Origin: Streptomyces griseoviridis
GTDB lineage: Bacteria; Actinomycetota; Actinomycetes; Streptomycetales; Streptomycetaceae
Length of the DNA stretch: 64,000 bases
Direction: 5' to 3'
Assembly: GCF_005222485.1 (NCBI RefSeq)
Contig: NZ_CP029078.1
Span: 992,001-1,056,000, forward strand
Position numbers and translations under genes: made by a program. This document shows positions 30,280-63,995 of the stretch, one piece after another (within the stretch, counting starts at the first letter, position 1; each line of letters opens with the position of its first letter). Under the pieces are notes generated by a model, which was not told the DNA's origin, did no database searches, and saw nothing but the letters and a program-made list of their open reading frames with translations.

Positions 30280-30873
30280 TCACCCGTCCCCCGTCGCCGG
30301 CGTCGACTCCGGTCGGTGGCTGGACAGTTCTTCGAAGCGGGTGATGGTGGCCGAGACGTCGTCCGGGATCCGCCTGCGTTGGGCGGTTCCGGTCTCGGGG
30401 GTGCCGATGTCCAGGACGCCGAGGAGGCGTTCGGGGCCGCGCAGGCCCAGGAACCGTCCTACCCCCGGGCTGGTGGCGAGCTGGCCGGTGCGCCAGATGC
30501 TGCCGTACTCCCTGGCGTGCAGGAGCAGCATCAGCGCGTGGGCCACGCAGCTCGCGGCGGCCAGTTGCTCCCACTCGGGGATGCGGTGCGCGCGGGGGAC
30601 GAAGACCAGCGCGGCGGAGAGCGGCGCCCGCTGGTACTTGGCCCTGAGCGCCTCGGTCGCCGCCGCGTCGGCTCCGGTCTCCTCGGCTATCCGCAGGCCG
30701 AGTTCGGCGCGTTCGTCGCTGCGCAGCAGGATCCAGCGCCAGGGCCTGAGCCTGCCGTGGTCGGGGGCGAGGCTCGCGCCCCGCAGCAGGTAGGCGAACT
30801 CCTCGTCGTCGGGGGCGGGTGCGCGCAGGGTGTGCTCGCTGCGGCGGGTGAGTACGGCGGTCATGACGTCCAT
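30280..30873 (-). CDS. Nitroreductase-family flavoprotein (YdjA-like)
   Basis: A 197-residue FMN-dependent oxidoreductase-like protein. The start at ATG 30873 (MDVMTAVLTRRSEHTL) is preferred to the ATG at 30864, because GAGAGG lies about 10 bases upstream. The motifs LLRGASLAPDHGRLRPWRWI and GSIWRTGQLATSP match YdjA-type nitroreductases. In NRPS clusters such flavoproteins often oxidise or reduce a C=N or C=C bond of a heterocycle; a role on the piperazate ring or another tailoring step is possible. Its start overlaps the end of the VOC gene by 13 bp, so translation is coupled. Confidence 0.85.
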   Translation of the reverse strand: MDVMTAVLTRRSEHTLRAPAPDDEEFAYLLRGASLAPDHGRLRPWRWILLRSDERAELGLRIAEETGADAAATEALRAKYQRAPLSAALVFVPRAHRIPEWEQLAAASCVAHALMLLLHAREYGSIWRTGQLATSPGVGRFLGLRGPERLLGVLDIGTPETGTAQRRRIPDDVSATITRFEELSSHRPESTPATGDG

Positions 30874-31340
30874 GGGGGGATGCCTCTCTCTGGCCGTGTC
30901 CGGGTGGAAAGTCGCCGGGCCGGGGTCCGTGCGTAGTGGACGAGTTCGAGCAGGAGTTCCGCCGGTTCCGGCAGGTACATGAAGGCCACGGTCATGCCTG
31001 GTCTGGCCCCGCGGCAAGGTGCGGCGTCGAGTGCGAGGAGGCCGCGCTCGCGCAGGGCGCGGGTCTCCAGGGCGAGGTCGTCGACGGTCAGGGCGAGGTG
31101 GTAGAGGCCGGGTCCCTGCTCGGCGAGGCGTCCGTCGACGGCGGAGCCGGGGCCGGTCGGGGAGACCAGCTCGATCTCGGTGCCCTCGGGATCGCCCGGC
31201 AGGCCCCAGAACTCGCAGGCGACCCGGTAGCCGTCGGCGACGCCCCGGTCGGTCCTGGTCAGGCCGAGTGCGCCGAGCTGGGCGCCGGCCGCCCGGGGGT
31301 CGGCGGTGGCGAGTCCGACGTGGTCGATGCCGAGGATCAT
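30861..31340 (-). CDS. VOC-superfamily protein (methylmalonyl-CoA epimerase/glyoxalase-like)
   Basis: A 159-residue protein. The start at ATG 31340 is supported by AGGAG 7 bases upstream. Two beta-alpha-beta-beta-beta units carry likely metal ligands: His in ILGIDHVGLATAD, Glu in EGTEIELVSP, His in LYHLALTVDD and Glu in ELLLELVHYART. The pattern is that of methylmalonyl-CoA epimerase and related glyoxalase-fold enzymes. In this cluster it could epimerise or rearrange a thioester-bound C3 unit, or give resistance; the sequence does not decide. It is the penultimate gene of the cluster transcript. Confidence 0.8.
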   Translation of the reverse strand: MILGIDHVGLATADPRAAGAQLGALGLTRTDRGVADGYRVACEFWGLPGDPEGTEIELVSPTGPGSAVDGRLAEQGPGLYHLALTVDDLALETRALRERGLLALDAAPCRGARPGMTVAFMYLPEPAELLLELVHYARTPARRLSTRTRPERGIPPWTS

Positions 31341-31368
31341 GGCGGGGCTCCTGGTGCGCTCGCGCCGG

Positions 31369-31626
31369 TCATCCGGCGGGGGTGGCCCGGGTTTCGAGGC
31401 GGCGGTCGATCTCGTCGGCGAGTTCGCCGACCGTCCGGATGGTCAGGTAGTGGCGCAGGTCGAGCCGGACGCCGTAGGCCTGTTCGACGGTGGCGAGCAG
31501 GCGCACGGCGACCAGGCTGCCCCAGCGGCCGAGTCCGGTGAACGGCGAGTCGGCGGTGATCTCGTCCGCCGGGTGCCGGGTGACGCGGGCGACGAGGCCG
31601 GGCAGGGTGGTCATCACGTCAGGCAT
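31369..31626 (-). CDS. Free-standing acyl carrier protein of the FkbH module
   Basis: An 85-residue carrier protein. The predicted phosphopantetheine Ser lies in FTGLGRWGSLVAVRLL. The residue before the Ser is Gly instead of the usual Asp (DSL), an uncommon form. It has acidic helix 2 features and ends in a typical helix (VGELADEIDRRL). It overlaps the end of the fkbH gene by 8 bp. By analogy with FkbH systems it should be charged with a glyceryl unit from 1,3-bisphosphoglycerate and present it to the KAS III-like enzyme or to an NRPS condensation domain. Confidence 0.85.
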   Translation of the reverse strand: MPDVMTTLPGLVARVTRHPADEITADSPFTGLGRWGSLVAVRLLATVEQAYGVRLDLRHYLTIRTVGELADEIDRRLETRATPAG

Positions 31627-33508
31627 GGTCGAGTGCCTCCTTGGGCGTGAGCGCGATCCAGTCGGGGGTGAGGGTGCCGAGCGCGTCGAGGCGGGCCCGG
31701 TAGCGGGCGCCGTCGCCGTCCGTGCGGGCGAGGCCGGCCTCGGGGTAGAGGCGGGCTGCGGGTCCGTTGCGGCCGGTGGGGGTGAAGTCCGCCTCGACGA
31801 GGGTGGCGCCGGCCGCTCTGGCCAGGTCGGTGACGTGCTGGAGGACGGCCCGTTCGACGCCGCGGGAGAGCACCCGGCAGCTCAGGACCATGTTCCGCAC
31901 CCGCCAGCTGTCGGGGCCGCGGTCGACCCAGACCCCGCCGACGACGCCCTCGGCGCCGAAGCGGTCGGTGACCTCCACGGTGAGCACGGCGTGGTCGGCG
32001 GAGTCGGCCATCCGGCGGGTGACGGCCTCTCCGTGCGCCGCACCGGTCATGTTGAACTGGTTAGTGCGGGAGGCGAGTTGGACGAGCCGGGGCAGGGTGT
32101 ACGGGTCCACCGGGCGCACCTGGACGCGGATGCCGAGGCCGGTGAGGTACTCCTCGGCGGAGTCGTGCGCGGCGCCGAAGCGGTGCCGGTCGCGCCGTCT
32201 GCGGTAGAGCGCGGTGCGTTCGATGTCGGTGGTCGTGGTGCCCAACTGGGCCCATCTGGCCGGGTCCAGGACCTTCGAGGAGTGGTCGGCGGGGTCGCCG
32301 TCCAGGTGGACGACGTCCACCTGGGGAAGTGAGCCGCCGACCAGACCGCACTCGAAGGCGCTGTCGTCGGCGAACGCGAACGCGTCGAGCCCCAGGGCGA
32401 GTTCCTCGGCCAGTGCGGCGATCCGGCTGTCCTTGGGCTGCCAGTCGGCGAGGACGGCGACGAAGTCGTCGGGCCGCAGCACCATGTCGGGGTGGCCGGA
32501 GAGGACCTCGTCGACCGGACCGGCGTCGTTCTTGCTGCACACGGCGAGCAGTACGCCCTGGCGGCGCAGGGCGAGGGCCCGGCGCTGGAGGTCGGTGTAG
32601 CAGTCTCCCGGGTAGAGGGTGCCGAGTTCGATGCCGGTGGGGCCGTCGTCGCCGACGACGCCGCCCCACAGAGTGTTGTCGAGGTCGAGCACGAGGACCT
32701 TGCGGCCGAGGCCGGTGACGGCGCGGGCGAAGGCCGACGCCTCCCGGGCGCAGGCGAGTTCGGCGTGCGGGGTCCACGCCATCCGGCCGTGGCGGTAGCG
32801 CCGTTCGTCACGGGCCGGGCCTTCAGTGTCGGCGAGGGCGGCCTCCAGGTCGGCGGTGTACAGGCCGTCGTGCTCCTCGCCCGCCCGCAGCAGCAGGGTG
32901 TTGGTCTCGCGCCAGATCCGGCCGAGGGCGGCCCGGGAGCGGTAGCCGATCACGGTGTCCCGGTCGGGGCGGGGCAGCGGGACGGTGTGCAGCAGGACGG
33001 CGGAGCCGGTGCGTGCGGCGAAGGCGGCCGCCGCGCGGACGGTGGCCGCGGCCCGTTCCAGCAAGGTGGCGCGGACCCCGTCCAGGTCCGTGGGGTCCCA
33101 GTCGGCGGGGAGGAGGGCGCCGGAGTGCTGGAGGCAGAGCGTGATGTCGGGCCGGAACGCGGTCAGTTCGGAGGCGGGGTCGGTGAGTTGGTCGCCGAGG
33201 CGGTCGTAGGGGCAGAGGTGGATCTCGGAGTCGAGGCCCGCGGCGAGCAGCGCGGTCCGCAGCAGCGGCACCACGCCGTCGGCGGTGAAGGTGGCGGCGA
33301 CGGCGATCCGCAGGGGCGTGGTCCGGCGTGGCGCGGCGCGGCGGACCCGGTCCGCGGTGACGTCGGCCAGCAGCAGTCCGGCCTCGCAGAGCAGCAACGG
33401 GTCGTCGCAGCGGGCGAGTTCGTCGCCGAGACCGGGGTCGGTGGCGGTCGGGTCGCCGAGCAGGGCGTCGACGCGGGCGAGCAGGGCGTCGGCGTCGGTG
33501 CCGGTCAT
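31619..33508 (-). CDS. fkbH: FkbH-like HAD-superfamily protein (glyceryl-ACP forming type)
   Basis: A 629-residue protein starting at ATG 33508 (MTGTDADALL). The N-terminal third (about 60-240) is the SGNH-like extension of long FkbH proteins. The HAD core begins at about residue 272 with VLVLDLDNTLWGGVVGDDG, where the DxD residues are nucleophile and acid. VCSKND and FADDSAFE supply HAD motifs 2 and 4. The C-terminus (about 480-625) is a GNAT-like acyl transfer region. FkbH proteins take D-1,3-bisphosphoglycerate, dephosphorylate it and load D-glycerate on an ACP. Overlap with the KAS gene (ATGA) and the ACP gene shows a translationally coupled trio. Confidence 0.9.
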   Translation of the reverse strand: MTGTDADALLARVDALLGDPTATDPGLGDELARCDDPLLLCEAGLLLADVTADRVRRAAPRRTTPLRIAVAATFTADGVVPLLRTALLAAGLDSEIHLCPYDRLGDQLTDPASELTAFRPDITLCLQHSGALLPADWDPTDLDGVRATLLERAAATVRAAAAFAARTGSAVLLHTVPLPRPDRDTVIGYRSRAALGRIWRETNTLLLRAGEEHDGLYTADLEAALADTEGPARDERRYRHGRMAWTPHAELACAREASAFARAVTGLGRKVLVLDLDNTLWGGVVGDDGPTGIELGTLYPGDCYTDLQRRALALRRQGVLLAVCSKNDAGPVDEVLSGHPDMVLRPDDFVAVLADWQPKDSRIAALAEELALGLDAFAFADDSAFECGLVGGSLPQVDVVHLDGDPADHSSKVLDPARWAQLGTTTTDIERTALYRRRRDRHRFGAAHDSAEEYLTGLGIRVQVRPVDPYTLPRLVQLASRTNQFNMTGAAHGEAVTRRMADSADHAVLTVEVTDRFGAEGVVGGVWVDRGPDSWRVRNMVLSCRVLSRGVERAVLQHVTDLARAAGATLVEADFTPTGRNGPAARLYPEAGLARTDGDGARYRARLDALGTLTPDWIALTPKEALDHA

Positions 33509-34548
33509 GAGGGGCCGGGCGACCAGCGCGGCCGCTCGATGATCTCGACGACGGCGCACGCGTAGGTGAAGCCCATGCCGATGCCGCACAGGGCGATCCG
33601 GTCACCCGGCGCCGCCTCGCCGGTCTCCAGGAGGTGGGTGAGGCCGGCGATCTGGTCGGCGGCGCCGATGTGGCCGACCCGGCGGCCCCACTCCCAGGTG
33701 GTCTTCTCGTCGGTGATCCCGAACGTCTCGCGGAACGGGACGTCGTCCAGGGTGCGGCCGACGTTGGTGAGGACCCAGCGGTCGATGTCGGCCGCGTCGA
33801 GGCCGGCGTCGGCGAGGGCGACGGTGACGCTCTCCCGCTGCCGTTCGGTGAGCGACTGGACGATCTCCAGCAGGAGTTCGCCGTTCTCGGCGAGGTAGTC
33901 GTCGCGCCGGGAGCGCAGATCGACCGGCTCGTCGGCGGAACTCTCCTGCGCGAAGGGGCTGTTGCCGAGGTAGACGGCTCCGTAGGTGCCGTCGCTGATC
34001 ACGGCTGTGGAGAGCAGGCGGGCGACGCCGCCGGTGCGGGAGAGCACCAGGCCGGTGCCGCCGTCGCCGAAGACGACGCCCTTGTCGGAGCGGTAGCGGT
34101 CGAAGCCGGGCAGCGCGAAGACGTCGCTGGTGGTGAGCAGGGCGGCGGCCGGTTCCGGGTGGTTGGCGAGGTAGGCGGCGGCGATCTCGACGGCGGCGAG
34201 CCCGCCGTTGGAGTACTGCTTGACCTCGACGGCGGCGGCGCTGCCGCCGACGGTGCGGCCCTGGACGTAGGAGGCCGGGGCGAAGTGGTCGAGGCCCTGG
34301 TGGTTGCAGCTGGAGTGGACGACCAGGCGGATGTCGTCGGCGCCCGCCGTGGCGCGGTCCATCACCAGGCCGCCCGCCCGCACGGCGAGTTCGACGGCGG
34401 GACCGTCGTCGGCGACGCTGATGGACAGGAAGCCGTCCGCGGCGGCCTCGTCGGCGTCGTAGCGGCCCTCCGCCACGGCGTCATCGGTCCGCTCGCCGCG
34501 GCCGAGCACGGCCGCGCAGGCATTGACATAGATTCCGTTCCACCGCAT
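33505..34548 (-). CDS. KAS III (FabH)-like acyltransferase with substituted catalytic triad
   Basis: A 347-residue thiolase-fold protein starting at ATG 34548 (MRWNGIYVNACAAVLG). The family pattern is clear: FGDGGTGLVLS, the C-terminal GMGFTYACAVVEI, and a KAS III-length architecture. By eye the FabH Cys position (DVAAACAGF) aligns with EVKQYSNGG, so Cys is Ser. The His position (VPHQAN) aligns with VLTNVG, and the Asn position (HGNTSAAS) with VGHIGAAD, giving His. A decarboxylative Cys-dependent condensation is therefore unlikely; an acyl transfer, perhaps of the glyceryl group from the neighbouring ACP, is more plausible. Overlaps fkbH by 4 bp. Confidence 0.82.
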   Translation of the reverse strand: MRWNGIYVNACAAVLGRGERTDDAVAEGRYDADEAAADGFLSISVADDGPAVELAVRAGGLVMDRATAGADDIRLVVHSSCNHQGLDHFAPASYVQGRTVGGSAAAVEVKQYSNGGLAAVEIAAAYLANHPEPAAALLTTSDVFALPGFDRYRSDKGVVFGDGGTGLVLSRTGGVARLLSTAVISDGTYGAVYLGNSPFAQESSADEPVDLRSRRDDYLAENGELLLEIVQSLTERQRESVTVALADAGLDAADIDRWVLTNVGRTLDDVPFRETFGITDEKTTWEWGRRVGHIGAADQIAGLTHLLETGEAAPGDRIALCGIGMGFTYACAVVEIIERPRWSPGPS

Positions 34549-34610: not shown

Positions 34611-36722
34611 TCAGCGCACGGTCTGTCCTGCCTCCCGCGCGAGCGCCGCGTCCGTGCCGGCGGGCGGGCCGCCCAGCGTGCAGCCGCAGCTGCCGGGCCC
34701 GTCGTCGGGGCGGGCCGATCGGGGCGCCAGGTCGAAGACGTCGGCGACGAAGGTGCGCCGCTCCTCGCCCAGGTCGCGTGCCATGTCGGCGGCTGCCAGC
34801 GCCCGGTTGTCCTCGTCGAGGTCCTGCGACAGCTTGAAGCGGCCGGTCAGTTCGTGGATGTCGACCTCGAACCCGACGACGTGGGAGAGGAGTTGGTCGA
34901 TGCGTTCGTCGTCGGGCCGCAACCGGTAGGAGCCGGGCCGGGGTTCCGCCTGTTCGCACAGGCCGTTGAAGACCCGCAGCAGCTCGTCCCGGCCGGAGAA
35001 GAGGCGGGCGCGGCCGTGGACGTGGACGGACATCGAGTTCCAGGTGGGCAGCTTGTCCGTCTTCAGCACGTCGGGCGAGAGGTAGGAGTTGGGTCCGTGG
35101 AAGACGACGGTGACCGGCCGGTCGCGCAACAGCTCGACCTGGGGGTTGGACCGGTCGAGGTGGCCGATCAGGGTGCCGTGTTCGCCGCCGCGGTCGCGTT
35201 CCACCACCAGCGGGACGTGCGTCACCAGGACCCGGGCGTCCCGGTCGGCGGAGATGACGGTGGCGAAGTTGAACCGCTCCATCACGGCCCTGACGCGCTC
35301 CAGGTCCTTCTCCACGTAGTGGTCCGGCGGGTAGGGGCCGGCGGACGGCCGGTCCTCGGGGCGCCGGGCGCGGAGGTCGTCGATGATCCGCTGGGACCTG
35401 AAGGGCAGCAGCGAGAGCAGGGTGTCCCCGATGCCGTACGCCCCTTCCGCGTACCCCTGGACGTAGAACCCGGCGGTGAGGGATTCGTCTGCGTCGACCC
35501 GGCAGTCGGCGGAGACGAGCAGCGCGCCGAAGTCGTCGCGGCGCAGCAGCGGGTCGAGTCCGGCGAAGACGGCGGGGTCGAGTTCGCGGGTGTAGCCGGT
35601 CGCGAGGACCACGCCGTCGCAGATGGCCGTCCGGTCGGGGCCGCCGGTCCGGTCGCGCACCAGCACGTTCAGCCGGGGGCCGTCCTCGGTGATCCGGGTG
35701 ACGTCGCAACCGCGGTGGACCACGAGGCGGGGTTCGCCGCGTACCTCGTCGGCGTAGGTGATGTCGTAGAGCGTGTCGAGGTAACCGGCTTCCACGGCAC
35801 CGTAGTTGGTGTTGCGCAGCTCGGTTCTGAGGAGGGCACGGCGGTGCGGGTCGTCGGCGTAGAACGCGTCGGCGTTCTGCCGGTAGAACTGCTCGTTGAC
35901 GAAGGGGTTGTTGTCGGTGGCCCGCAGGGCGTACCCGGGGACGAAGAGGTGGACCTTCGCGTTCGGGTAGTGGGTGAGCATGTGGGCGGCGATCTCGGCG
36001 GCGCTCTGCCCGTCGCCCACCACGCCGAGGTCGAGCGCGGCGTCGTGGTCGGGGAACCGGTGGGGGAAGGCGGGCAGGAACCGGGACGAGTGGATGACCG
36101 ACGGGGTGTCGCAGATCCGGTCGGGGGTTCCGCGGCGCGGGGTGCCGCCGCCCGCGTGGACGACGTTGCGGGCGTAGAGGGAGTACGGCGTGCCGGTGGC
36201 GGTGTCCCGTACCCGGACGTGCAGCAGGTCGAGGGCCGTCGATCCCGGTCCGGTCACCGGGGTGACAGAGACGACCTCGGAGCGGTATCTGACGACGTCG
36301 GCGAAGTGGCCGGCGACCCAGCTCAGGTAGTCCTGGTACTCCAGGCGGGTGGGTCTGGTCACCCCGATGTTGACGAACTTCTCCAGCCTGCCCTTGGCCT
36401 TCAGATAGGAGAGGAAGGTGTAGGGGCTGGCCAGGTTCCGCAGGGAGACCAGGTCCTTGAGGTAGGAGATCTGCATCCGGGCGCCTTCGAGGAGCATGCC
36501 CGGGTGCCAGTGGACGCCGGTGTTGCGTTCGAGGAAGAGGCGGTCGGCTCCGGGGTCGAGTTCCTCGGCGGCGATGGCGAGGGCCAGGTTGGAGGGCCCG
36601 AAGCCGATGCCGATCAGGTCGAGGGGGTCGGCCGGGTCGGTTCCCCGGCGAGGTGCGGGACCGGCCTGGCCGGACGGCAGGCCATGGGCACTGGGGGTCA
36701 CAGCTCCACCCTTCTTTGACAT
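34611..36722 (-). CDS. Fused L-ornithine N5-hydroxylase / piperazate synthase-like protein
   Basis: A 703-residue fusion. Residues about 30-450 are an N-hydroxylating flavin monooxygenase of the SidA/PvdA/KtzI type: FAD loop DLIGIGFGPSNLALAI, NADPH loop LGVVGDGQSAAEIAAH, and VVLATGYTRELDP. Residues about 465-650 are a PaiB/KtzT-type domain: HYVEKDLERVRAVMERFNF, GHLDRSNPQ and LPTWNSMSVHVHG. KtzI and KtzT-type enzymes convert L-ornithine to N5-hydroxyornithine and then to L-piperazic acid through heme-dependent N-N bond formation; here both steps sit on one chain. The last 50 residues are an unusual Gly/Pro/Cys-containing tail. The start at 36722 lies 2 bp after the stop of the 7-kb NRPS gene. 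Confidence 0.88.
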   Translation of the reverse strand: MSKKGGAVTPSAHGLPSGQAGPAPRRGTDPADPLDLIGIGFGPSNLALAIAAEELDPGADRLFLERNTGVHWHPGMLLEGARMQISYLKDLVSLRNLASPYTFLSYLKAKGRLEKFVNIGVTRPTRLEYQDYLSWVAGHFADVVRYRSEVVSVTPVTGPGSTALDLLHVRVRDTATGTPYSLYARNVVHAGGGTPRRGTPDRICDTPSVIHSSRFLPAFPHRFPDHDAALDLGVVGDGQSAAEIAAHMLTHYPNAKVHLFVPGYALRATDNNPFVNEQFYRQNADAFYADDPHRRALLRTELRNTNYGAVEAGYLDTLYDITYADEVRGEPRLVVHRGCDVTRITEDGPRLNVLVRDRTGGPDRTAICDGVVLATGYTRELDPAVFAGLDPLLRRDDFGALLVSADCRVDADESLTAGFYVQGYAEGAYGIGDTLLSLLPFRSQRIIDDLRARRPEDRPSAGPYPPDHYVEKDLERVRAVMERFNFATVISADRDARVLVTHVPLVVERDRGGEHGTLIGHLDRSNPQVELLRDRPVTVVFHGPNSYLSPDVLKTDKLPTWNSMSVHVHGRARLFSGRDELLRVFNGLCEQAEPRPGSYRLRPDDERIDQLLSHVVGFEVDIHELTGRFKLSQDLDEDNRALAAADMARDLGEERRTFVADVFDLAPRSARPDDGPGSCGCTLGGPPAGTDAALAREAGQTVR

Positions 36723-36724: not shown

Positions 36725-39700
36725 TCACAGCACTCCTGTGGTCCGGGTCTCGGTGAACGCCGCGAGGGCCGCAACGGTGGGGTCCTCGAAGAACCTCTGC
36801 GGCGGGATCTCGACGCCCGTCTCGTCCCGGATGCGGGCGACGAGCCGGGTGGCGAGGAGGGAGTGGCCGCCGAGGGCGAAGAAGTTGTCGTGGACGCCGA
36901 CGCCGTCCAGGTGGAGCACGTCCTGCCAGAGGGCGGCGAGGGTCTCCTCGGCCGGGGTGCGCGGCGGGGTGCGGTCGTGCCGGGCGGGCCCGTCCGGACG
37001 GGGCAGGGCGGCCCGGTCGACCTTGCCGTTGGGGGTGCGGGGCAGGGCGTCGAGGACGACGAAGGCGGACGGGACCATGTAGCCGGGGAGCCTGGACCGC
37101 AGGTGCCGTTCGACGGCCGGGACGAAGTCGGCGTCGCCGCACGCGGGTTCGGGGGCGGCGACGAACTGGGCGGCGTCGCAGCCGGAATCAGGGGCGGGGA
37201 CAAACTCGGCTTCGTCACGCCCGGATTCAGGGGCAGGGACGAACTCGGCCTCGACGCGACCGGATTCAGGGGCGGCGACGAACTCCGCGCCGCCACGCCC
37301 GGGTTCGGGAGCATCGACCAACTCGGCCTCTCCGCAACGAGATTCAGAGGCAGGGACGGACTCCGCGTCGTCGCGCCCGGATTCAGGGGCGGGGACGAGG
37401 TGGGCGATCAGGGTGGCGCCGGCGGGGCCGGTCTCGTCGACGGTCACCACCGCGTCGCCGACCAGGCCGGAGCCGTCCAGGACGCGTTCGATCTCCCCCA
37501 GCTCGATGCGGAATCCCCGCACCTTCACCTGATGGTCCACCCGCCCCCGGAACTCCAACTCACCCTCCGGCGTCCACCGCGCCAGATCCCCCGTCCGATA
37601 CAGCCGGCCACCCTCCCCACCGAACCGGTCCGGCACAAAACGCTCCGCCGTCAGACCCGGACGACCCGAATAGCCCCGCGCCAGACCCGCACCGCCCAAG
37701 AACACCTCCCCCACCACACCCACCGGAACCAACTCACCCCACCCATCACACACATACACCCGCGTCCCCCCGATAGGACGCCCCACCGTCACCCCACCCG
37801 AACCCACCTCACACCACGTCGAATACGTCGTGTCCTCCGTCGGACCATACAAATTGAAAACACGCACACCCTCATCAACACCACGCACCCCCTCCACCAC
37901 CGAAGAACGCAACACCTCCCCCGCCACATTCACCGCACCCACACCCACCGGAAACGCCCCCGCACCCACCAACGCCTCCACCGCCGACGGCACCGAATTA
38001 ATCAACGAAGGAACCGGCACCACCCCACCCTCAACCAACTCCAACACATCACGCACCACCACCACCGACCCACCCACAGCCAACGGCGCAAACACCTCGA
38101 ACACCGACAAGTCAAAACACACCGACGTCGAACCAAGAACCCGCGACAACAACTCCCCGCCAAACAAATTCACAGCCCACTCGACAAAAGCCACCGCACT
38201 CCCATGCGACAACACCACCCCCTTCGGCACACCCGTCGAACCCGACGTATAAATGCAATACGCCGCACCCCCCGAAAACACCTCCACACCCGGACCCACC
38301 AACGACCCAGCCCGCAACCCCACCTCATCCACACACACCACCACCACACCCTCACCCACCAACCCCTCAACCACCCCCACCACCGACCGATCACACACCA
38401 CCACACCCACACCAGAATCAGCCGCCATAAACCTCAAACGCTCCACCGGATAACCCGGATCCAACGGCACATAACCAGCCCCCGCCTTCAACACCCCCAA
38501 CATCCCCGCAACCATCCCCACACCCCGCGACACACACAAACCAACCAAACAATCAACCCCCACCCCCAAACCCACCAACCTCAAAGCAACCGCATTAGCC
38601 CACCCATCCAACTCCCCATAACTCACACCCACCCCACCACACTCCACCGCCACCACATCCCGACACCCCACCACCCGCCGCTCAAACAACTCATGCAAAC
38701 CCACCACCCCACCACCCACCACACCCCCACCATCACCAAACCCCACCACCTCACCCCGACCCACACCATCCAGAACACCCACTTCATTCACCTGCATGTC
38801 CACTCCGTCCACCAGGCCCTCCAACAACACCGTGAACAACCCCACCAGCCGCTCCACAGAACCCCGGTCGAAAAGATCCGTGGCGAATTCGATCTCACCC
38901 TCCAGGCCGTTGCCGGGGCCGGTCTCGGAGAGGAAGAAGGCGAGGTCGAACTTGGCAGTCCTGGAGTCGTGTTCGTAGTAGCCGATGTCCAGGCCGGGGA
39001 GGGTGATGTCGCGGTTGCCGAAGCCGGGCACGGAGGTGCCGGGTTCGGCCTTGGAGCCGTGGGTCGTGGTGTAGCTGTAGGTCACCTGGAAGAGGGGGTG
39101 CCGGGAGAGGTCGCGGACGGGCTGGATCTCCTCGACGAGCTTCTCGAACGGCAGGTCCCGGTGGGCGTCGGCCCGCAGCATGGACGCGCGGACCTCGCGG
39201 AGCTGGGAGGCGAAGGTGTCGCCCGGGGCCAGCCGGGAGCGCAGGATCAGGGTGTTGACGAAGAGACCGATCAGGTTCTCGGTCTCCAGCCGGTCGCGGT
39301 TGCCCACCGCGTAGCCGACGCAGAAGTCGTCCTGGCCGCTGTAGCGGTGCAGCAGGATGTTGAAGGCGGTGGCGACCGTCATGAAGACGGTGGCGTCGTG
39401 GTCGTGGCTGATCTCCCGCAGGGCGTCGCTGAGTTCGGGGGTGAGGGTGAAGGAGACGGTGCCGCCGCCATGGCTGGGCACCGACGGGCGGGGACGGTCG
39501 GTGGGCAGGTCGAGGGCGTGCTCGGCGCCGTCGAGGTGGTCGCGCCAGAAGGCGAGGTGCCGCTCGACCTGGCGGTCTTCGAGCATGCGGTTCTGCCAGC
39601 GGGCGAAGTCGGTGTACTGGACGGCCAGTTCGGGCAGGTCGGCGGGCCGGCCGTCGACGAAGGCGCTGTAGAGGGCGGAGAGTTCGGTGAGCAGCACGTC

Positions 39701-57400: not shown

Positions 57401-58345
57401 GAGGAAGGTGATGACGAGCTGGTCGGAGCGGGGCAGCAGGACGGCGACGACCTGTTCGGGGCCCGCGCCGCGGGCGGCGAGCAGCCGGGCGAGCCGGTTG
57501 GCCCGCGCGTTCAGCTCCGCGTACGTCCAGACGGCCCGGTCGCAGCGGATCGCCGCGGTGTCCGGGGTGCGCGCGACCTGCTCCTCGAACCAGGCGCCGA
57601 AGGTGGTGTCGGGCACCTCCCGCGCGGTGTCGTTGACGGTGTGCAGCAGGTGGTGGCGCTGCTCCTCGTCGAGGATGTCGAGCCGGTGGACGGGCGCGTC
57701 GGGGTCGGCGAGGGCCGAGGCGAGGAGCCGGTCGAGGTTGCGCAGGAACCGGTCGGCGGTGGCGGGTTCGAAGATCCGGCGGGCGTGGTGGAGCCGGTCG
57801 GGTCCCGGGCCGCCGACGTCGAACCAGAGTTCGGCCTCCGGGTGCGGCGCGGCGCCGGTGGTGGAGACGCCCACCTGGAAGAGGGGCCTGCCGGGGGTGT
57901 GCCGGGCCCGGTTGACGGCGTCGCGCACCTCGTCGGCGGTGACGGCGGCGTGCCGCGCCGCCTCTTCCCGGCGCGCGGCCACCCGGGCGACCAGTACGCG
58001 GAAGGAGGGGCGGCCCGACACGTCGATCCGCAGGACGGCGGGGTGGCCGCCCGCGCCGGTCACCGCGAGCGGCAGGTCGGTGCCCGCGCCGAGCCGGTGG
58101 ACGAGCGCGGCGACCGCGGCCTCGTGGACGGCGGCGACCGGCACCCCCGCGGCGGCCGCGAACGCGGCGGCGTCCGCCCTGCTGCGCGCCGGCGGCCGGT
58201 GCTCGGCGCGGTCCAGGACGCGGTCGGGGAGCGCGGGGCGCGGCCGGTCGGTGGGGAGGTCGTGCTGCTCCGCGAGACCGGCGAACACCGTGAGCCAGTG
58301 GTCGAGCGGGGCCGGGTCCGCGGGGGCGGTGCGGTTGCCGTTCAT
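54407..58345 (-). CDS. NRPS initiation-like protein: C-lobe remnant-A-PCP-C
   Basis: A 1312-residue synthetase. The start is ATG 58345 (MNGNRTAPADPAPLDHWL), with GGAGAG 5 bases upstream. The first 215 residues match only the C-terminal lobe of a condensation domain (LPTDRPRPALP onward), so no HHxxxDG exists there. The A domain (about 245-740) has LLYTSGSTGTPKGIS and YNLYGPTETHAATALL. By eye the code is D-P-Q-Y-A-G-L-A-A-K, a D-x-Q type as in proline-like imino acid codes; piperazate is a candidate. PCP Ser is in FFELGGNSLLG (about 789). A complete C domain (about 835-1290, VVHHVACDGASV) ends the protein. Confidence 0.93.
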   Translation of the reverse strand: MNGNRTAPADPAPLDHWLTVFAGLAEQHDLPTDRPRPALPDRVLDRAEHRPPARSRADAAAFAAAAGVPVAAVHEAAVAALVHRLGAGTDLPLAVTGAGGHPAVLRIDVSGRPSFRVLVARVAARREEAARHAAVTADEVRDAVNRARHTPGRPLFQVGVSTTGAAPHPEAELWFDVGGPGPDRLHHARRIFEPATADRFLRNLDRLLASALADPDAPVHRLDILDEEQRHHLLHTVNDTAREVPDTTFGAWFEEQVARTPDTAAIRCDRAVWTYAELNARANRLARLLAARGAGPEQVVAVLLPRSDQLVITFLAVLKAGAVYMPADPGLPETRLRTMLADAAPALVVTDSATRHLVPEEIPAAALVETDTDPLIDRQPDTAPQVAGVTGDTPVYLLYTSGSTGTPKGISMGTAAIVNLIAWNMRHLPAGPGHVTAHFAALGFDPTVQEFLGTLLAGGTLVVPPEELRRDPAEFVHWLREHRITDLYAPTVMIEAIYRAALAQGVELPELRQIAQGGEPLVLSAAAKEFHAAVPRRLYNLYGPTETHAATALLMPADVADWPENTPIGEALWNTRLYVLDEDLAPVPPGVPGELYIAGRCLARGYHRRPAQTAGRFLPDPFGAAGSRMYRSGDVVRLRADSRLEFLGRTDHQLKIRGMRVELGEVEAAIRQTPQVQDAAVIAAGTGSRQRLDAYLVPAPGAVDVVAATRALLARTVPAPMIPATFTLLDALPVNPNGKLDRLGLPAPHVAPGRPPATPTEHALCRIAEQVLQCGQVGTDDNFFELGGNSLLGSELAAQVRTGLGLALGVDVILGRPTVAEWAHALTTAGEERPELRPARPRPAEPRASHAQQNLWLVDQLEGPSPRYNEPFALRLTGRLDPSVLEAALNDVIARHEALRTVLTVSAEGEPRQRVAPPGQPRTALPVTDVTEARLPAAMRESTARPFDLAADPPLRALLLRITDAPEDTHVLLVVVHHVACDGASVAPFWRDLAAAFNSRTGQPDPDGGPPPLPVQYADYALWQRDLLDPDRDPHTLVKRQSAYWASALAGLPELTATPTDRPRPEIRSAAGGAVPLTLPADAHARLAAFARSRRTTVFTVVHAAVTALLDHLGAGPDIAVGAVVAGRTDHALDDLVGFFANTVVLRVRTDGAPDFDTLVERARETDLAALAHQDLPFEQVVDVLRPARTLAHTPLVQIMLAFQVRPALPPALTGLDTRFQHVDTGVAKFDLCFDIAETFGPDDAPTGLEGSLSFPLDIYDESTAARYAALLTRLLHQAPTRSGETPGRLLADPEPDPRPTHRAPGERRPTC

Positions 58346-58403: not shown

Positions 58404-59507
58404 TCAGCTGACCAGCACCGCCTTGAGGGCCGTGCCGTCCGCGACGTCCCGCAGCGCCGAGGCGCAGTCCCCCAGCGGGTAGGTGGTCACCAGCCGCCCC
58501 AGCTCGAAGCGGGCGCCCAGGTCGGGCAGGAGCGCCACGTAGCGGGCGAGGTGGGCGCCGGTGAACGCCCACGAGCCGACGACGTCGAGCTGCCGGTGGA
58601 CGATCTGGTGCGGGTTGATCAGGGCGTCGCCGCTGTCGGTGTACTGGCCGACCACCAGGTACGAGCCGCCCCTGCGGGCGAGCCCGAGGCCCTGTCCGAC
58701 GGCGGCGGGCACCCCGGTGCACTCGACGACCAGGTCGGCGCCGCGCCCGCCGGTGCGGTCGAGGACCTCGGCGAGCGCGCTCTCCTGGTCCGCCGCGCCG
58801 ACGACGTCCACGTGGTCGGTGCCGATGCCGAGTTCGGCGGCGAGACGCAGCCGTCCGGCCGGGCCGCCGGCCACGATCACCCGTCGGGCGCCCGCGAGGT
58901 GGGCCATCGCTGCGGCGGCGAGCCCCACCGGGCCGCTGCCCTGGACGACGACGGTCTCGCCGAGCCGCACCGGCCTGCGTTCGAAGGCGTGCGCCATGGT
59001 GGGTCCCGCGCAGGCCAGCGACATGGCGGTGCGGGCGTCGACGCCGTCCGGGAGTCGGATCACCGTGGTGCCGGGGGCCAGTTCGATGTGCTCGGCCCAG
59101 GAGCCGGCCAGCGGTGCCGGCCCGGTGGCCGGGCGGTTGACGCCGTAGGTCCTGCGCCGCTCGCACAGGGTGGGCTCCAGGTGGGTCGCGCAGGGCACGC
59201 AGCTCCCGCACGCGATCGACGACGCCCACATCACCGTGTCGCCCACCGCGAGCGGGGTGCCCTGGCTGTCGAGGCGGACGCCGTCGGCGAGTTCGTGCAC
59301 GGTGCCCAGTCCCTCGTGGCCGAGGACCAGCGGGAGCGGCACGTCCAGGTGCCCCTGCCCGAGGTGGAGGTCGGTGCCGCAGACGCCGCCGTAGCGGGAG
59401 GCGACGACCATGCCGCCGGGCGGGGCGGTGGGCAGCGGGAACTCTCTCAGCGCGAGGGGGGCGCCGAACCGTTCGAGCACGACGGCGCGGCTGGTCCGGT
59501 CGGTCAT
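58404..59507 (-). CDS. Zinc-dependent alcohol dehydrogenase (MDR family)
   Basis: A 367-residue medium-chain dehydrogenase starting at ATG 59507. The catalytic zinc site is GGVCGTDLHLGQ and LGHEGLGTVHEL. The structural zinc lobe has its Cys in IACGSCVPCATHLEPTLC. The NAD(P) loop is VVVQGSGPVGLAAAAMA. In the cluster it would oxidise a hydroxyl made by one of the oxygenases or act on a C3 unit. Overlaps the upstream PhyH gene by 4 bp (ATGA) and is followed 59 bp later by the A-PCP-C NRPS gene. Confidence 0.92.
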   Translation of the reverse strand: MTDRTSRAVVLERFGAPLALREFPLPTAPPGGMVVASRYGGVCGTDLHLGQGHLDVPLPLVLGHEGLGTVHELADGVRLDSQGTPLAVGDTVMWASSIACGSCVPCATHLEPTLCERRRTYGVNRPATGPAPLAGSWAEHIELAPGTTVIRLPDGVDARTAMSLACAGPTMAHAFERRPVRLGETVVVQGSGPVGLAAAAMAHLAGARRVIVAGGPAGRLRLAAELGIGTDHVDVVGAADQESALAEVLDRTGGRGADLVVECTGVPAAVGQGLGLARRGGSYLVVGQYTDSGDALINPHQIVHRQLDVVGSWAFTGAHLARYVALLPDLGARFELGRLVTTYPLGDCASALRDVADGTALKAVLVS

Positions 59508-60304
59508 CGGATGAGGTCTCCGTCCGTGATGGGCTCGTCGTCGGCGCGCAGGGTCCGGGTGTCGCGGCCGACCAGGTAGTCGGGGCGGGCGGCCCCGGCC
59601 GGACTCGGCTGGTTGCGGACGTCGTTGTAGGTGGCGATCAGCAGCCTGCGGGGCTGCGGCGACATGTTGGTGGCGGAGCCGTGCACGATCTCCGGGTGGA
59701 AGAGGACCACCGAGCCGGCCGGTCCCTTGGCGCTCTCCATGCCGTGCCGGGCGACGAGTTCGCGCATCTCGTCGCGGCCGAGCGCGATCTCGTCGGGGTC
59801 GACGTGGCTCGCGCCGACGGCGCCGCGGGGTGTCCCGCCCGGGGCGCCGCGGCGGTGCGAGCCGGGCACGAAGATGACCGGGCCGTTGTGCTCGGTGGCG
59901 TCGTCCAGGAAGAGCGCGGCGTTGAGCAGCCGGGGTTCGGCGAGGTTGTCGGCGGCCCGCCAGGCGGCGAAGTCCTGGTGCCAGGACCAGCCGCCGCCGC
60001 TGAACGCGGGCTTGCTGTTGATCTTGAACTGGTACATGTACACGTCGGGGCAGAGGAGTTGGCGGACCGGGCCGAGCAGCCGAGGCGAGCGGATCAGCGC
60101 CGCGAACTCGGGCCGCCGCTGGTGCGAGGCGTAGACGGCCCGCAGCTCGCCGCCGTCCTCAAGGACCCGGTGCGGGCCCGGCTCCCGGGCGTCCCGGGTG
60201 AAGGCCGCCCGGAGCGACTCCACCTCCTCGGCGTCGAACAGGGCGCGCAGGACGACGAATCCCCTTTCCTGATACGCGTTCACCTGACCAGGGGTCAGCC
60301 TCAT
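59504..60304 (-). CDS. PhyH-family Fe(II)/2-oxoglutarate oxygenase (second in cluster)
   Basis: A 266-residue enzyme starting at ATG 60304, with GGAGGG 5 bases upstream. The iron ligands are the His and Asp of WSWHQDFAAW and the His of HPEIVHGSATNMS, with Arg in QPRRLLIATYND. YMYQFKINSKPAFSGGG aligns with the substrate strand of the first cluster PhyH enzyme. It is first gene of the minus-strand operon that continues into the dehydrogenase and three NRPS genes. The likely role is hydroxylation of an amino acid precursor. Confidence 0.92.
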   Translation of the reverse strand: MRLTPGQVNAYQERGFVVLRALFDAEEVESLRAAFTRDAREPGPHRVLEDGGELRAVYASHQRRPEFAALIRSPRLLGPVRQLLCPDVYMYQFKINSKPAFSGGGWSWHQDFAAWRAADNLAEPRLLNAALFLDDATEHNGPVIFVPGSHRRGAPGGTPRGAVGASHVDPDEIALGRDEMRELVARHGMESAKGPAGSVVLFHPEIVHGSATNMSPQPRRLLIATYNDVRNQPSPAGAARPDYLVGRDTRTLRADDEPITDGDLIR

Positions 60305-60482: not shown

Positions 60483-61697
60483 TCAGCGCGAGGTGACGGT
60501 GATCGGCAGCCGGTCGAGGCCGCCGGTGATGTACGACGGGATGCGCCGGGGCTCGCCGGCGAGCGCGATCTCGATCCGCTCGTCGACCAGTTCGTCAAGG
60601 AGCGCGGCGATCATCAGCCGGGCGAGCGGCGCCCCGATGCAGAAGTGGCCGCCGCCGCCGAAGCTGGCGTGCCGGTTGGGACGGCGGTCGAGCCGGAACT
60701 CCTCCGGCCGCTCGAAGACGCTCTCGTCCCGGTTCAGCGACGGGAGCCAGACGCTGACCGCCTGGCCCGCGCCGATCGGCACCCCGGCGACCTCGGTGTC
60801 GGCGAGCGCGGTGCGCATGATGTGGTTCACCGGCGCCGACCAGCGCAGCATCTCCTCCACCGCGTGCTTCCTGCTGATCTCGCCCCGGCGCAGCGCGGCG
60901 GCCTGCTCGGGGGCGTCCAGCAGGGCGAGCAGCCCGGCGCCGGTGACCTGCCGGGTCGTCTCGCCCGCCGCGACCACCAGGTTGTCGCAGGTGAGGATGA
61001 TCTCCTCGTCGCTGATGTCCAGTCCCTCCGCCTGGGCCAGGACGAACGCGGAGACCACGTCGTCACCCGGCCGTCGGCGGCGGTCCTCCAGGACCTCGGC
61101 GTAGTACTGGAGGACCTCCAGATGGGCCTGTTGGGCGGTGCTGCCGTCGATGTCCACGATGTTGTCGGCGGCCGTGCCGGTCCAGGCGGCCACCCGGTCC
61201 ACGTCCTCGGGCGCCACCCCGAGGAGTGCGGCGGTCACCGCCAGCGGGTAGCGGGCCGCCACGTCGTCGACGAAGTCGCGCGGGCCCGCGTCGGTGACCT
61301 CGGCCATCAGCCGGTGGGCGACCTCGCCCGCCCTGGCCTCGAAGGAGCGGGCGGCGCGCGGGCTGAAGAGACGGCTGAGCACCCCGCGCAGCACACCGTG
61401 GCGCGGCGGGTCGGTGAGCGTCATCATCCGGCCGCCGCCGGGGAACGGGTCGGAGAGGTTGGGGCGCAGGAAGGTGCCGCGGGTCGAGCTGAAGCGGCTG
61501 GAGTCGGTGAGGACGTCGAGCCCCTCGGGGTAGGTCGTCACCGCCCAGAAGCCCTCGTGGCCGGGCTCGTCGTGCCAGGAGACCGGGGCCTCGCGGCGCA
61601 GCCTGGCCCAGACGGCGTGCGGGTCGCCGTGCGCGTACAGGGCGGGGTCCGTCAGCGCGAGGCCGGGATCGGCCGGCGCGTACCGCTCAACCACCAC
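60483..61697 (-). CDS. Cytochrome P450 (second)
   Basis: A 404-residue P450 starting at GTG 61697, with GGAG in the end of the upstream MFS gene as ribosome site. The I-helix reads LVVAAGETTRQVTG, the K-helix VEEMLRWSAPV, and the heme loop ASFGGGGHFCIGAPLARL with the Cys ligand. The family resembles actinobacterial CYP107/CYP105-type hydroxylases. It follows the MFS gene by 3 bp and precedes the operon promoter region at 60305-60482. Confidence 0.94.
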   Translation of the reverse strand: MVVERYAPADPGLALTDPALYAHGDPHAVWARLRREAPVSWHDEPGHEGFWAVTTYPEGLDVLTDSSRFSSTRGTFLRPNLSDPFPGGGRMMTLTDPPRHGVLRGVLSRLFSPRAARSFEARAGEVAHRLMAEVTDAGPRDFVDDVAARYPLAVTAALLGVAPEDVDRVAAWTGTAADNIVDIDGSTAQQAHLEVLQYYAEVLEDRRRRPGDDVVSAFVLAQAEGLDISDEEIILTCDNLVVAAGETTRQVTGAGLLALLDAPEQAAALRRGEISRKHAVEEMLRWSAPVNHIMRTALADTEVAGVPIGAGQAVSVWLPSLNRDESVFERPEEFRLDRRPNRHASFGGGGHFCIGAPLARLMIAALLDELVDERIEIALAGEPRRIPSYITGGLDRLPITVTSR

Positions 61698-61700
61698 GGG

Positions 61701-63098
61701 TCACTCCTTCGTCGGGACGGTGTCCATGGCGCCCGGCCGGGGCCACTCGGCCTCGTCGGGCAGGTCGCGGACCCGTCGCAGGGGGGACCTGAACAGGAAC
61801 AGCACGCTCAGGAAGCCGCCGACGACCGCGATCCAGAGGGTGGGGCGGACCCCGAGAAGGGTGCCGAGGGCTCCGGCGACCAGCGCGCCGACCGGGCGGA
61901 CGCCGTAGCTGATGGCCATCTGCGCGCCCTGCATCCGGGACCTGAGCCGGTCGGGGGTGATGGCCTGCTGGAGGGTGGCGCCGCTGATGTCGAAGAGCAT
62001 CAGGCCGAAGGCGGAGACGAACTCGCCCGCCACCAGCATGGCGACGACCAGCCACTGCGGGCCGTGCGCGAGCGGGGTCATGACCAGCGCGGCGGGGAAG
62101 ACCAGACAGCCGACGAGGTACGTGGGGCCGAGCCCGACGCGCCGGGAGAACCGCGTGGTGACGGCGGAGCCGATCAGCGCGCCGACCGCGCCGACGCTCA
62201 CCACCGCGCCGACCAGACCGGCCGAGAGGCCGAGGTCGCGGGCGGCGAAGAGGATGAGCAGCGTCGAGTAGACGGTGTAGAAGAAGTTCAGGGCGGTGCC
62301 GGAGACGAACTTGGCGCGCAGCACGGCCGTGGCGACGAGGAAGCGCAGCGCCTCCCTGATGCCGTCCCGCGGCTTGCCCGCGTCCTCCTGCGTCGCCTCC
62401 GCCTTCTCCTGCCCCTGCTCCCCCTCGTCCTTCCCGGTGGCCTCCCGGTCCGGGATGGCCCGCAGCAGCACGGTGGCGACGAGGAACGAGAAGACGTCGA
62501 GGACCAGGGCGAAGGGCGCGGAGAGGATCTGCACGACGGCGCCGCCGACGCTGGGTCCGGCGACGAAGGAGAAGGAGTAGCTGGCCCTGCTCAGCGAGGT
62601 GGCGCTCAGGTACTGCTCGCGCGGGACCAGGGAGGCGAAGAGGCCGGGCACGGCGACGCTGAACACCACCGCGAGGGTGCCCGTCACGAAGGAGACGGCG
62701 TACAGGTGCGGCAGCGTCAGCGAGCCGGTGAAGTGGGCGAGGGGGACGGTGGCCACGGTCGCCGCGCTGGCGAGGTTGGCCGCGATCATCGTGGATCTGC
62801 GCCGGCCGCGCCGGTCGACCCAGGCGCCCGCGTGCAGCGAGAACAGCAGCAGCGGCAGTTGTTGCAGGGTCACCAGCAGACCCATGTCGGCCGCGGAGGC
62901 GTCGAGCGTCATCACCGCGATCAGCGGCAGGACGATGGACGTGACCTGGTCCCCCATGTAGGAGACGGTCTGCGCGGTCCAGAAATTACGGAAATCCCGC
63001 TGGCGCAGCACGGCGGGAATTCTGTCCGTCAGGCGGGGCGGCGCGACCACATTCAACGTCTGAATCCGTCCTGGGTTCCGTTGGCTTTCCTTCGACAT
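61701..63098 (-). CDS. MFS exporter of the cluster (MFS_3/EntS-like)
   Basis: A 465-residue, 12-helix transporter starting at ATG 63098. The motif between helices 2 and 3 is AGAWVDRRGRRRS. The central cytoplasmic loop is long and highly charged (REATGKDEGEQGQEKAEATQ, about residues 215-240). The family exports siderophores and peptide or macrolide antibiotics, so export of or self-resistance to the peptide is the natural role. It is coupled to the P450 gene 3 bp downstream. Confidence 0.92.
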   Translation of the reverse strand: MSKESQRNPGRIQTLNVVAPPRLTDRIPAVLRQRDFRNFWTAQTVSYMGDQVTSIVLPLIAVMTLDASAADMGLLVTLQQLPLLLFSLHAGAWVDRRGRRRSTMIAANLASAATVATVPLAHFTGSLTLPHLYAVSFVTGTLAVVFSVAVPGLFASLVPREQYLSATSLSRASYSFSFVAGPSVGGAVVQILSAPFALVLDVFSFLVATVLLRAIPDREATGKDEGEQGQEKAEATQEDAGKPRDGIREALRFLVATAVLRAKFVSGTALNFFYTVYSTLLILFAARDLGLSAGLVGAVVSVGAVGALIGSAVTTRFSRRVGLGPTYLVGCLVFPAALVMTPLAHGPQWLVVAMLVAGEFVSAFGLMLFDISGATLQQAITPDRLRSRMQGAQMAISYGVRPVGALVAGALGTLLGVRPTLWIAVVGGFLSVLFLFRSPLRRVRDLPDEAEWPRPGAMDTVPTKE

Positions 63099-63206
63099 TC
63101 CGGCGGCATTCCGTCAGGGTCCGTCGGTGTATTCGGGCGGTGTTCCGGCGGTGGCCGCCGGGGAACGGCGGCCGGAGGCCGGCGGCCGGACGCTCCCCGG
63201 CGGGGT

Positions 63207-63995
63207 TCACGGCAGGTCGTCCAGGCGGCCCCGCACCACGGCGGGCCCCGCCACCAGGACCCGGTCACCGGCGAGGGTCACCGACAGGCGCCCGCCGCGC
63301 TCGGAGAGCTGGAGGGCGGACATCGTCTCCCTGCCCGTCCGCTCCGCCCAGTACGGCGCCAGTTTGCAGTGCGCGGAGACGCAGACCTGGTCCTCGTCGA
63401 CCCCGAGGGCGGGGAAGAAGGTGCGGGAGACGAAGTCCGCGCCGCCGCCCCTGGCGGTCACCACGTGCCCGCGGCAGTCGATCGCCGCGAGCGCCTCGAA
63501 GTCGGGCTTGAGGGAGGCGACGTCGTCCACCGACCCGACCTCGACGAGGATGTCGTCCTCGGCGCGCTCGCACGCCGTGACCTCCACCCCGAGCGCCTTC
63601 TCGAGGCCGGGCGGCGGGGTGATGGGCACGGTGCGCATCACCGGCAGGTCGATGGCGAACCCGCCGTCCACCCGGTGGGTGTACAGCTCGCCCGCGCCGG
63701 TCTCGAAGACCAGCGGGAGCGCGTCGTCGACCCCGCCCGCCTCGTGCAGGTAGCAGGCGCTCGCCACGGTGGCGTGACCGCAGATGTTGAGTTCCTTGCC
63801 GGGGGTGAACCAGCGCACCCGGTAGCGGTCCTCGGTCAGCCGGTGCAGGAAGGCGAGGGTGGGCAGCCCCGCCGCGCGGGCGGCGCCCTGCATCCGGTCG
63901 GCCGGTGGCAGGCCGTCGGGGCAGAGCACGACACCGGCCGGGTTGCCCCGGAACTCGGCGTCCGCGAAGGCGTCAACCAACCAGATCTCCGTCAC
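63207..63995 (-). CDS. PhzF-like protein with altered catalytic Glu; start near window edge
   Basis: At least 262 residues starting at GTG 63995, 5 bases from the window end, so the true start may lie outside. PhzF/diaminopimelate-epimerase fold markers are FRGNPAGVVL, LNICGHATVASACYL and VCVSAHCKLAPYWAERTG. In PhzF the catalytic Glu sits in a SETAF-like motif; here the position reads LPTLAF, so the Glu is replaced. The protein may be an isomerase with another chemistry, or a non-catalytic member. In this cluster an epimerase-like activity would be useful, because no NRPS epimerase domain is visible. Confidence 0.85.
   Translation of the reverse strand: MTEIWLVDAFADAEFRGNPAGVVLCPDGLPPADRMQGAARAAGLPTLAFLHRLTEDRYRVRWFTPGKELNICGHATVASACYLHEAGGVDDALPLVFETGAGELYTHRVDGGFAIDLPVMRTVPITPPPGLEKALGVEVTACERAEDDILVEVGSVDDVASLKPDFEALAAIDCRGHVVTARGGGADFVSRTFFPALGVDEDQVCVSAHCKLAPYWAERTGRETMSALQLSERGGRLSVTLAGDRVLVAGPAVVRGRLDDLP

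Follow-up and report, generated by a model that had tools for sequence, protein, structure and literature searches.

Does the formation of piperazate in the PaiB fold extend beyond the known piperazate synthases (PZS)? This question is raised by a nonribosomal peptide synthetase (NRPS) cluster of Streptomyces griseoviridis, in which a single protein of 703 residues joins an L-ornithine N5-hydroxylase to a PaiB-like haem-fold domain (hereafter, the fusion). We analysed the cluster in a window of 64,000 nucleotides (NZ_CP029078.1, forward-strand positions 992,001 to 1,056,000) and past its right edge in the same genome (8.96 Mb, one contig); positions below are those of the window. The first-pass annotation of 30280-63995, all of whose listed genes were present, had proposed a piperazate cluster with a "KtzI plus KtzT-type" enzyme pair. 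The KtzI-like ornithine hydroxylase half of this pair held, whereas the KtzT-type half did not, and the argument for piperazate from a KtzT-type enzyme fell with it. Piperazate nevertheless stayed the likelier reading on two other, indirect grounds, the decay of the PaiB-like domain in one related genome and the co-occurrence of the fusion with one class of adenylation (A) domain.

The Fusion Forms a Clade of Its Own in the PaiB Fold

The N-terminal half of the fusion passed its family cut-off (293.2 versus 21.3 bits) and matched ornithine hydroxylases including KtzI, and the C-terminal half matched PF04299 with 120.9 bits (cut-off, 22.4). A model of the PaiB-like domain (mean predicted local distance difference test score, pLDDT, 84.4) had a fold like that of PaiB, NohD, and PZS, none of which was separated by Foldseek; the model of the whole fusion, made from sequence alone, had a mean pLDDT of 35.3. 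Against PDB chains, the domain scored 89.6 bits with PaiB and 85.1 bits with NohD, and 67.1, 61.7, 58.3, and 57 bits with four PZS. The haem ligand H57, T98, and K167 (NohD numbering) were kept in the window's domain but are non-specific, as PaiB too keeps the haem His and the catalytic Thr and Lys according to PMC13274692.

We placed the domain in a tree of 88 rows, which included the window, 73 fusion rows (L023 and L034 duplicate others), PZS-type controls, and NohD. The fusion rows comprised 71 of 79 homologues, admitted on the KLSQ motif and at least 600 residues, so that K167 was conserved by selection, and two added rows. The PZS-type controls were six Streptomyces loci, four of them with a hydroxylase gene within 3.5 kb. 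Control L025 matched PipS with 264 bits and KtzT with 211 bits, and these and two further PZS all outscored NohD. L021 had also been tried as a control and proved not to be a PZS; most other PF04299 proteins of Streptomyces were of the PWDA type.

Several results weighed against the formation of piperazate by the fusion. The fusions and the window formed their own clade (100/99) and PZS another (100/96). D59, L96, and R144 occurred in the window and in 73/73 fusion rows, whereas N59, A96, and Y144 occurred in 6/6 PZS-type controls and in 0/74 fusion rows including the window; R144 is also the NohD residue. The KLSQ motif of PZS is flanked by Met and Glu, as stated in PMC10888640, and the window, which reads GRF-KLSQ-DLD, fails this rule. 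Because of the separate clade and the residue differences, the domain was not assigned to the PZS, and a clean KtzT reading was rejected on the PDB scores, the KLSQ flanks, the clade, and residues 59, 96, and 144. A clean NohD reading was also rejected, since the fusions group apart and carry D59/L96 where NohD has A59/V96. NohD, a single row (residues 3-185) on a long branch of the kind for which the tree program warned of some joins, grouped with PZS (99/92) and not with the fusions.

The locus thus resembles the KtzI/KtzT pathway of the kutznerides, himastatin, and aurantimycin in pairing an ornithine N5-hydroxylase with a PaiB-fold protein in which the haem His, Thr, and Lys are conserved, and differs from it in having one fused protein of a separate clade with D59/L96/R144 and no known piperazate (Piz) A-domain code. 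With NohD (PDB 9oqs and mutants), whose structures carry N-hydroxylated ornithine as ligand according to the PDB titles, the window's domain shares Arg144 and KLSQDLD but neither the grouping with PZS nor positions 59 and 96.

Co-occurrence and Domain Decay Point Indirectly to Piperazate

The fusion was found in 6/392 Streptomyces genomes (E 1e-120). In a phylum-wide sample it was found in 1/396 genomes, the window's own, and the co-occurrence test therefore rests on Streptomyces. When the A domain of NRPS2 was searched in 323 Streptomyces genomes (a smaller draw than the 392, with the four best candidates per genome scored), ranks 1-6 were occupied by the six fusion genomes with at least 489.5 bits, and the seventh scored 424.8 bits. 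In these six, about 3 to 24 kb separated the NRPS2-like A domain and the fusion, and among the 30 best NRPS2 A-domain loci the motif YGQTETSEVA occurred in the six fusion genomes only. This sequence association leads us to infer that the fusion's product is the substrate loaded by the NRPS2 A domain.

The second line of evidence came from genome G208. Its hydroxylase half was retained (243/445 aligned residues identical to the window), and its PaiB-like half had lost the haem His, the PTW motif with its Thr, and the Lys of KLSQ, with no stop codon; this half scored 25.7 bits against PF04299, versus 111-143 bits in eight other fusion genomes. About 18 kb away, a separate protein carried N59/A96/Y144 and shared 43-48% identity with three PZS-type controls, against 26% with the window's domain. 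Among the nine fusion genomes searched, G208 was the only one with a PZS-type protein, and the PZS motif GHxNRANP was absent from five further PF04299 proteins (G000, G001, G002, G003, and G153). The simplest account is that one enzyme was replaced by another of the same product.

Further points on the opposing side concern the loading step and the sample. Known Piz codes, such as DVFSVAAYAK, DVFSVGPYAK, and DVFTVAAYAK in PMC9866976, were found in 0/6 A domains of the cluster and in 0/3 readable A domains of G208. The pocket of NRPS2 resembles Ser pockets and is small for piperazate, and its best PDB match was the second A domain of LgrA rather than a piperazate enzyme. Genomes G210 and G050 carry the similar YGQTETAEV with no fusion at E 1e-120. 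The six fusion genomes represent only about three independent lineages, because three of them belong to the cluster family of the window and two others resemble each other. The G208 cluster may also have switched to piperazate rather than kept it. As for the codes, the surroundings of the PZS-type control loci (five genomes, at most about 19 kb either way and often less at contig ends) likewise showed no known Piz code; the absence of such a code is therefore a weak test, and the argument that a missing Piz code means no piperazate was rejected. Because the domain has decayed in G208, where a PZS-type protein lies nearby, and because of the A-domain co-occurrence, we consider it more probable than not that piperazate is made and is loaded by NRPS2 via an unrecognised code. 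The wider proposal, that the fusions are a third, unrecognised lineage of N-N bond-forming PZS, each a self-contained ornithine-to-piperazate enzyme with its own A-domain class (YGQTETSEVA), is tentative and stands slightly below an even chance.

Two other features of these regions were recorded. Besides the decayed fusion and the PZS-type protein, the G208 region (L081 and L125) holds a carbamoyltransferase gene (Pfam) and a second look-alike gene, PhyH3-like and AspH-like proteins, and NRPS2- and NRPS3-like A domains; the neighbourhood of the carbamoyltransferase suggested no product. The NRPS regions of G023 and G153 (L079, L080, L083, and L085) carry the fusion, in genomes with no match to the cluster's ketosynthase (KAS3, below) at E 1e-90, and two adjoining A domains there read DVWHASQEVK and DVWHFSQECK.

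Extent of the Cluster and Its Relatives

Gene calls combined codon bias, open reading frames, and hidden Markov model matches. They gave 18 genes in the window, all on the minus strand except that of the docking-tagged thioesterase (dTE) (Table 1). The genes of the first-pass annotation were confirmed but its extent was too short: five further genes follow on the same strand past the window edge over ~6 kb, bringing the cluster to 23 genes and ~40 kb (30280 to about 70146). They encode membrane-desaturase-like, haem-oxygenase-like, Asp/Pro-hydroxylase-like, and PhyH-family (halogenase-like) proteins and an NRPS (NRPS5), and have counterparts in matching order in two other genomes. On the left, similarity to the relatives ended at the nitroreductase in the stretches compared. 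Within the window, the predicted inventory of four NRPS proteins with five A domains and one cis thioesterase (TE) domain was borne out.

Table 1. Genes of the cluster in the window and its right flank. Bits are profile scores. C, condensation; PCP, peptidyl carrier protein; ACP, acyl carrier protein; KAS III, ketoacyl synthase III; VOC, vicinal oxygen chelate; MFS, major facilitator superfamily; Fe/2OG, iron/2-oxoglutarate; P450, cytochrome P450.
Feature	Position	Strand	Evidence or remark
NTR, nitroreductase-family, left end of conserved cluster	30280..30873	minus	PF00881 70.8 bits; in 6/6 clusters compared
VOC, methylmalonyl-CoA-epimerase-like	30861..31340	minus	TIGR03081 47.3 bits, under cut-off 114.95
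ACP, stand-alone	31369..31614	minus	PF00550 46.2 bits, cut-off 20.8 (scanned as 31369-31626)
FkbH, glyceryl-ACP synthase-like	31619..33508	minus	TIGR01686 272 bits, cut-off 146.65
KAS3, DpsC/CerJ/ChlB3-like, Ser replacing KAS III Cys	33505..34548	minus	top PDB match DpsC, 252.9 bits
Fused L-ornithine N5-hydroxylase/PaiB-like haem-fold enzyme	34611..36722	minus	PF13434 and PF04299
NRPS4, TubC_N-C-A(Ala-type)-PCP-C-A(Ala-type)-PCP	36725..43690	minus	domain scan and pocket codes
dTE, TubC_N docking domain fused to thioesterase	44102..45058	plus	PF18563 51.9 bits, PF00975 101.3 bits
NRPS3, C-A-PCP-TE	45225..49202	minus	code DVWYIGGRVK
NRPS2, degenerate C-A-PCP	49199..52309	minus	code DVWHQSLEVK, motif YGQTETSEVA
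P450b	52360..53586	minus	PF00067 67.2 bits
PhyH2, Fe/2OG hydroxylase-like, HQD motif	53610..54413	minus	TIGR02408 162.1 bits, under cut-off 336.5
NRPS1, truncated C-A-PCP-C	54407..58345	minus	code DPQYAGLAAK
ZnDH, zinc alcohol dehydrogenase	58404..59507	minus	PF00107, PF08240; relatives in type A and B genomes
PhyH1, Fe/2OG hydroxylase-like, HQD motif	59504..60304	minus	PF05721 134 bits
P450a	60483..61697	minus	PF00067 89.3 bits
MFS exporter	61701..63098	minus	PF07690 154 bits
PhzF-like isomerase, last gene inside window	63207..63995	minus	PF02567 163.7 bits
Right flank	L009 973-7146 (L009 base 1 = window 63001)	minus	continues cluster to about window position 70146

A KAS III scan of genome contigs gave four related loci, to which flanks were then added from their genomes. 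Two are of the same type as the window (type A): in S. clavifer, 23/23 genes lie on one contig in the same order (protein identities of about 72-94%), and in Streptomyces sp. SolWspMP-5a-2, 22 genes and the final part of NRPS4 are spread over two contigs (identities of about 87-99%). The type B clusters of S. spinosus and G009 have in common with type A a core of 14 genes, namely those for the fusion, ZnDH, PhyH1, P450a, MFS, thioesterase, NRPS1-, NRPS2-, and NRPS3-like proteins, KAS3, FkbH, ACP, VOC, and NTR; in G009, the NRPS1-like gene was recovered in pieces. Of the core genes, 8/14 were seen in S. murinus. KAS3 at 80% identity or more occurred in 3/392 Streptomyces genomes (the window's own, G249, and G009).

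The extra genes of type B include those for UvrA-like and dimethylargininase-family proteins. The UvrA-like protein is encoded within the clusters of S. spinosus and G009 (L006, L015, L065, and L066), and none was seen among the type A genes; it perhaps serves for self-protection against a DNA-acting product.

A Putative Glyceryl-Transfer Cassette

The predicted glyceryl-ACP branch was supported, as both FkbH and the ACP cleared their cut-offs (Table 1). Together with KAS3, VOC, and NTR they form a five-gene cassette that was present as a whole in 6/6 clusters compared. The proposed FkbH-ACP-KAS III trio held at the level of genes; its KAS III, however, failed the test for a FabH-type Cys and has Ser at that active-site position. 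DpsC ranked first among PDB chains, followed by CerJ and ChlB3, with mycobacterial and other FabH proteins far lower, and the DpsC Ser that aligned with the KAS3 Ser is a modified residue (X) in two DpsC chains. In the best 120 of 224 homologues, the nucleophile site was Ser in 103, Cys in 15, and Thr in 2. On sequence grounds, KAS3 is therefore more likely to transfer a glyceryl or derived acyl group than to catalyse C-C condensation, because it carries the Ser site and matches DpsC, CerJ, and ChlB3. It differs from these three in standing beside FkbH, ACP, VOC, and NTR. In five Streptomyces genomes, a KAS3 homologue of 45-52% identity had no gene matching FkbH among those called in the surrounding 9-18 kb; for G268, one of the five, the gene caller had overlooked the KAS III gene itself.

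NRPS Modules, a Putative Proline Branch, and a Docking-Tagged Thioesterase

Pocket codes were anchored on GrsA numbering. One multi-row A-domain alignment lost pocket position 278 for most rows, and the codes quoted here are not from that alignment; in the NRPS2 code, a deletion shifts the reading of position 330/331 by one place. The code DLFNNALTYK was read in both A domains of NRPS4, in agreement with the two alanines predicted earlier. These A domains are 95% identical over 463 aligned residues, whereas the two C domains are 44% identical. NRPS4 of S. clavifer has a single Ala-type module where that of the window has two, so its product is expected to contain one Ala fewer. No HHxxxDG motif was found in NRPS2, and NRPS1 begins with what was interpreted as a C domain lacking its N-terminal part (no Pfam call).

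The Ala-type A cores (37.3-38.9 kb and 40.7-42.2 kb) have a keto-rich coding strand, as does the single copy of S. clavifer. The first core has a GC content of 0.62, a GC skew of +0.63, and a T over A skew of +0.59; the adjoining C domain has a GC content of 0.72. Tandem 39-bp (13-aa) repeats lie at 37111-37332 and 40534-40599, in the C-terminal subdomain of both Ala-type A domains, and were not seen in the single Ala-type module of S. clavifer.

NRPS5, outside the window, is an A-PCP-TE protein with the code DVQFVAHLVK, two residues off the proline code DVQYVAHVVK printed in PMC9113097. The adjoining PhyH-family protein scored 292.7 bits against TIGR01762 (the chlorinating-enzyme family; cut-off, 226.3) and had CytC3 and SyrB2 as its best PDB matches. 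In Fe/2OG halogenases that act on carrier-bound substrates, Ala or Gly replaces the iron-binding carboxylate. In 3/3 type A halogenase-like proteins, HQV replaces HQA, which leaves no carboxylate, but Val is not the usual residue, a point against the chlorination. Chlorination of prolyl-PCP by this protein is likely, judging from its family score and neighbour. The arrangement resembles SyrB1/SyrB2 and CytC3 in that an A-PCP protein stands beside a chlorinating-enzyme-family protein, and is distinguished by the proline-like A domain, the fused TE, and the HQV motif.

NRPS1 shares Q at position 239 with the proline-like code of NRPS5, and its type B counterpart reads DIQFAAHAVK, which is nearer proline than the window's NRPS1. 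The pocket of NRPS1 is thus altered in type A, where NRPS5 and the halogenase-like protein occur, which would fit the reloading of a modified proline.

TubC_N (PF18563) starts both NRPS4 and the thioesterase in the window. The S. clavifer thioesterase also has TubC_N, and the two domains occurred together in 9/37 homologues among the matches listed. In type B, TubC_N was present on NRPS4 and none was found on the thioesterases (S. spinosus at E 5; G009 at E 1). Compared with the TubC_N docking domains of NRPSs, the N-terminus of NRPS4 is the same, whereas here the domain is also fused to a stand-alone thioesterase. The dTE could bind at the docking site used by NRPS4 and there edit the chain.

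Alternative Explanations

The fusion may be an ornithine N-hydroxylase/dehydratase, turning N5-hydroxyornithine via an imine into glutamate semialdehyde or pyrroline-5-carboxylate; the peptide would then hold a pyrroline- or proline-type residue and no piperazate. The higher PDB scores of PaiB and NohD than of all four PZS, the Arg144 and KLSQDLD common to the fusion and NohD, the N-hydroxylated ornithine with which NohD was solved, and the proline-like codes in both type A and type B clusters speak for this. However, NohD itself joined PZS rather than the fusions, albeit on a long branch, and has A59/V96 against D59/L96 in 73/73 fusions; pyrroline-5-carboxylate is already a primary metabolite, and G208 has a PZS-type protein alongside the decayed domain. 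None of the 25 entries listed of 120 literature matches contained the term hydroxylamine dehydratase. We regard the dehydratase as rather unlikely and keep to piperazate.

For the cassette, the combination of FkbH, ACP, and KAS III resembles that of tetronate clusters, and DpsC itself has condensing activity; the trio might therefore form a C-C bond in tetronate style instead of transferring a glyceryl unit. The Ser site, the PDB ranking with FabH far below, and the lack of a polyketide synthase among the scanned cluster genes make this unlikely, and glyceryl transfer stays the favoured role. A last alternative is that the whole cluster makes a known compound whose cluster lies outside the resources searched, which were open-access papers and did not cover MIBiG; relatives in several named species would suit this. 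No open-access paper was found that joins piperazic acid with FkbH, or chloroproline with a halogenase and Streptomyces, and none giving a product of the cluster, so the earlier claim that it matches no named product was supported within the papers searched. The gene content is also not known to match that for any named product. A known compound is accordingly quite improbable.

Proposed Assembly and Implications

The cluster probably makes a small, heavily oxidised peptide, perhaps chlorinated. In a scheme read from module content and docking, NRPS5 would load Pro on its own PCP, the SyrB2/CytC3-type protein would modify the prolyl-PCP, probably by chlorination, and the NRPS5 TE would free the modified proline for NRPS1. 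NRPS1 would load it and, through its C-terminal C domain, join it to the residue of NRPS2. The first half of the fusion would hydroxylate ornithine at N5, and the second half, though outside the known PZS clade, would most likely close the N-N ring to piperazate, which NRPS2 would load. NRPS4 would then add Ala twice, and NRPS3 would add one more residue and release the chain by its TE, in line with the peptide of about five residues predicted earlier. In parallel, FkbH would charge the ACP with a C3 unit derived from glycerate, which the Ser-type KAS III would pass on as an acyl group to a putative acceptor; ZnDH, VOC, and NTR may process the C3 unit or the peptide. The module order and the C3-unit acceptor are presumed, which counts against the scheme, and we give the whole of it, with fusion-made piperazate, an even chance.

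Besides the fusion, the cluster combines a putative glyceryl-transfer cassette with NRPS genes and includes a thioesterase with an NRPS docking domain. If the proposed role of the fusion is true, one purified enzyme would settle whether the piperazate N-N ring arose more than once in the PaiB fold. The fusion and YGQTETSEVA together would also be a new mining hook for piperazate peptides, including hidden ones in several phyla that mining with KtzT and known Piz codes would miss, as judged by the source names of the homologues.

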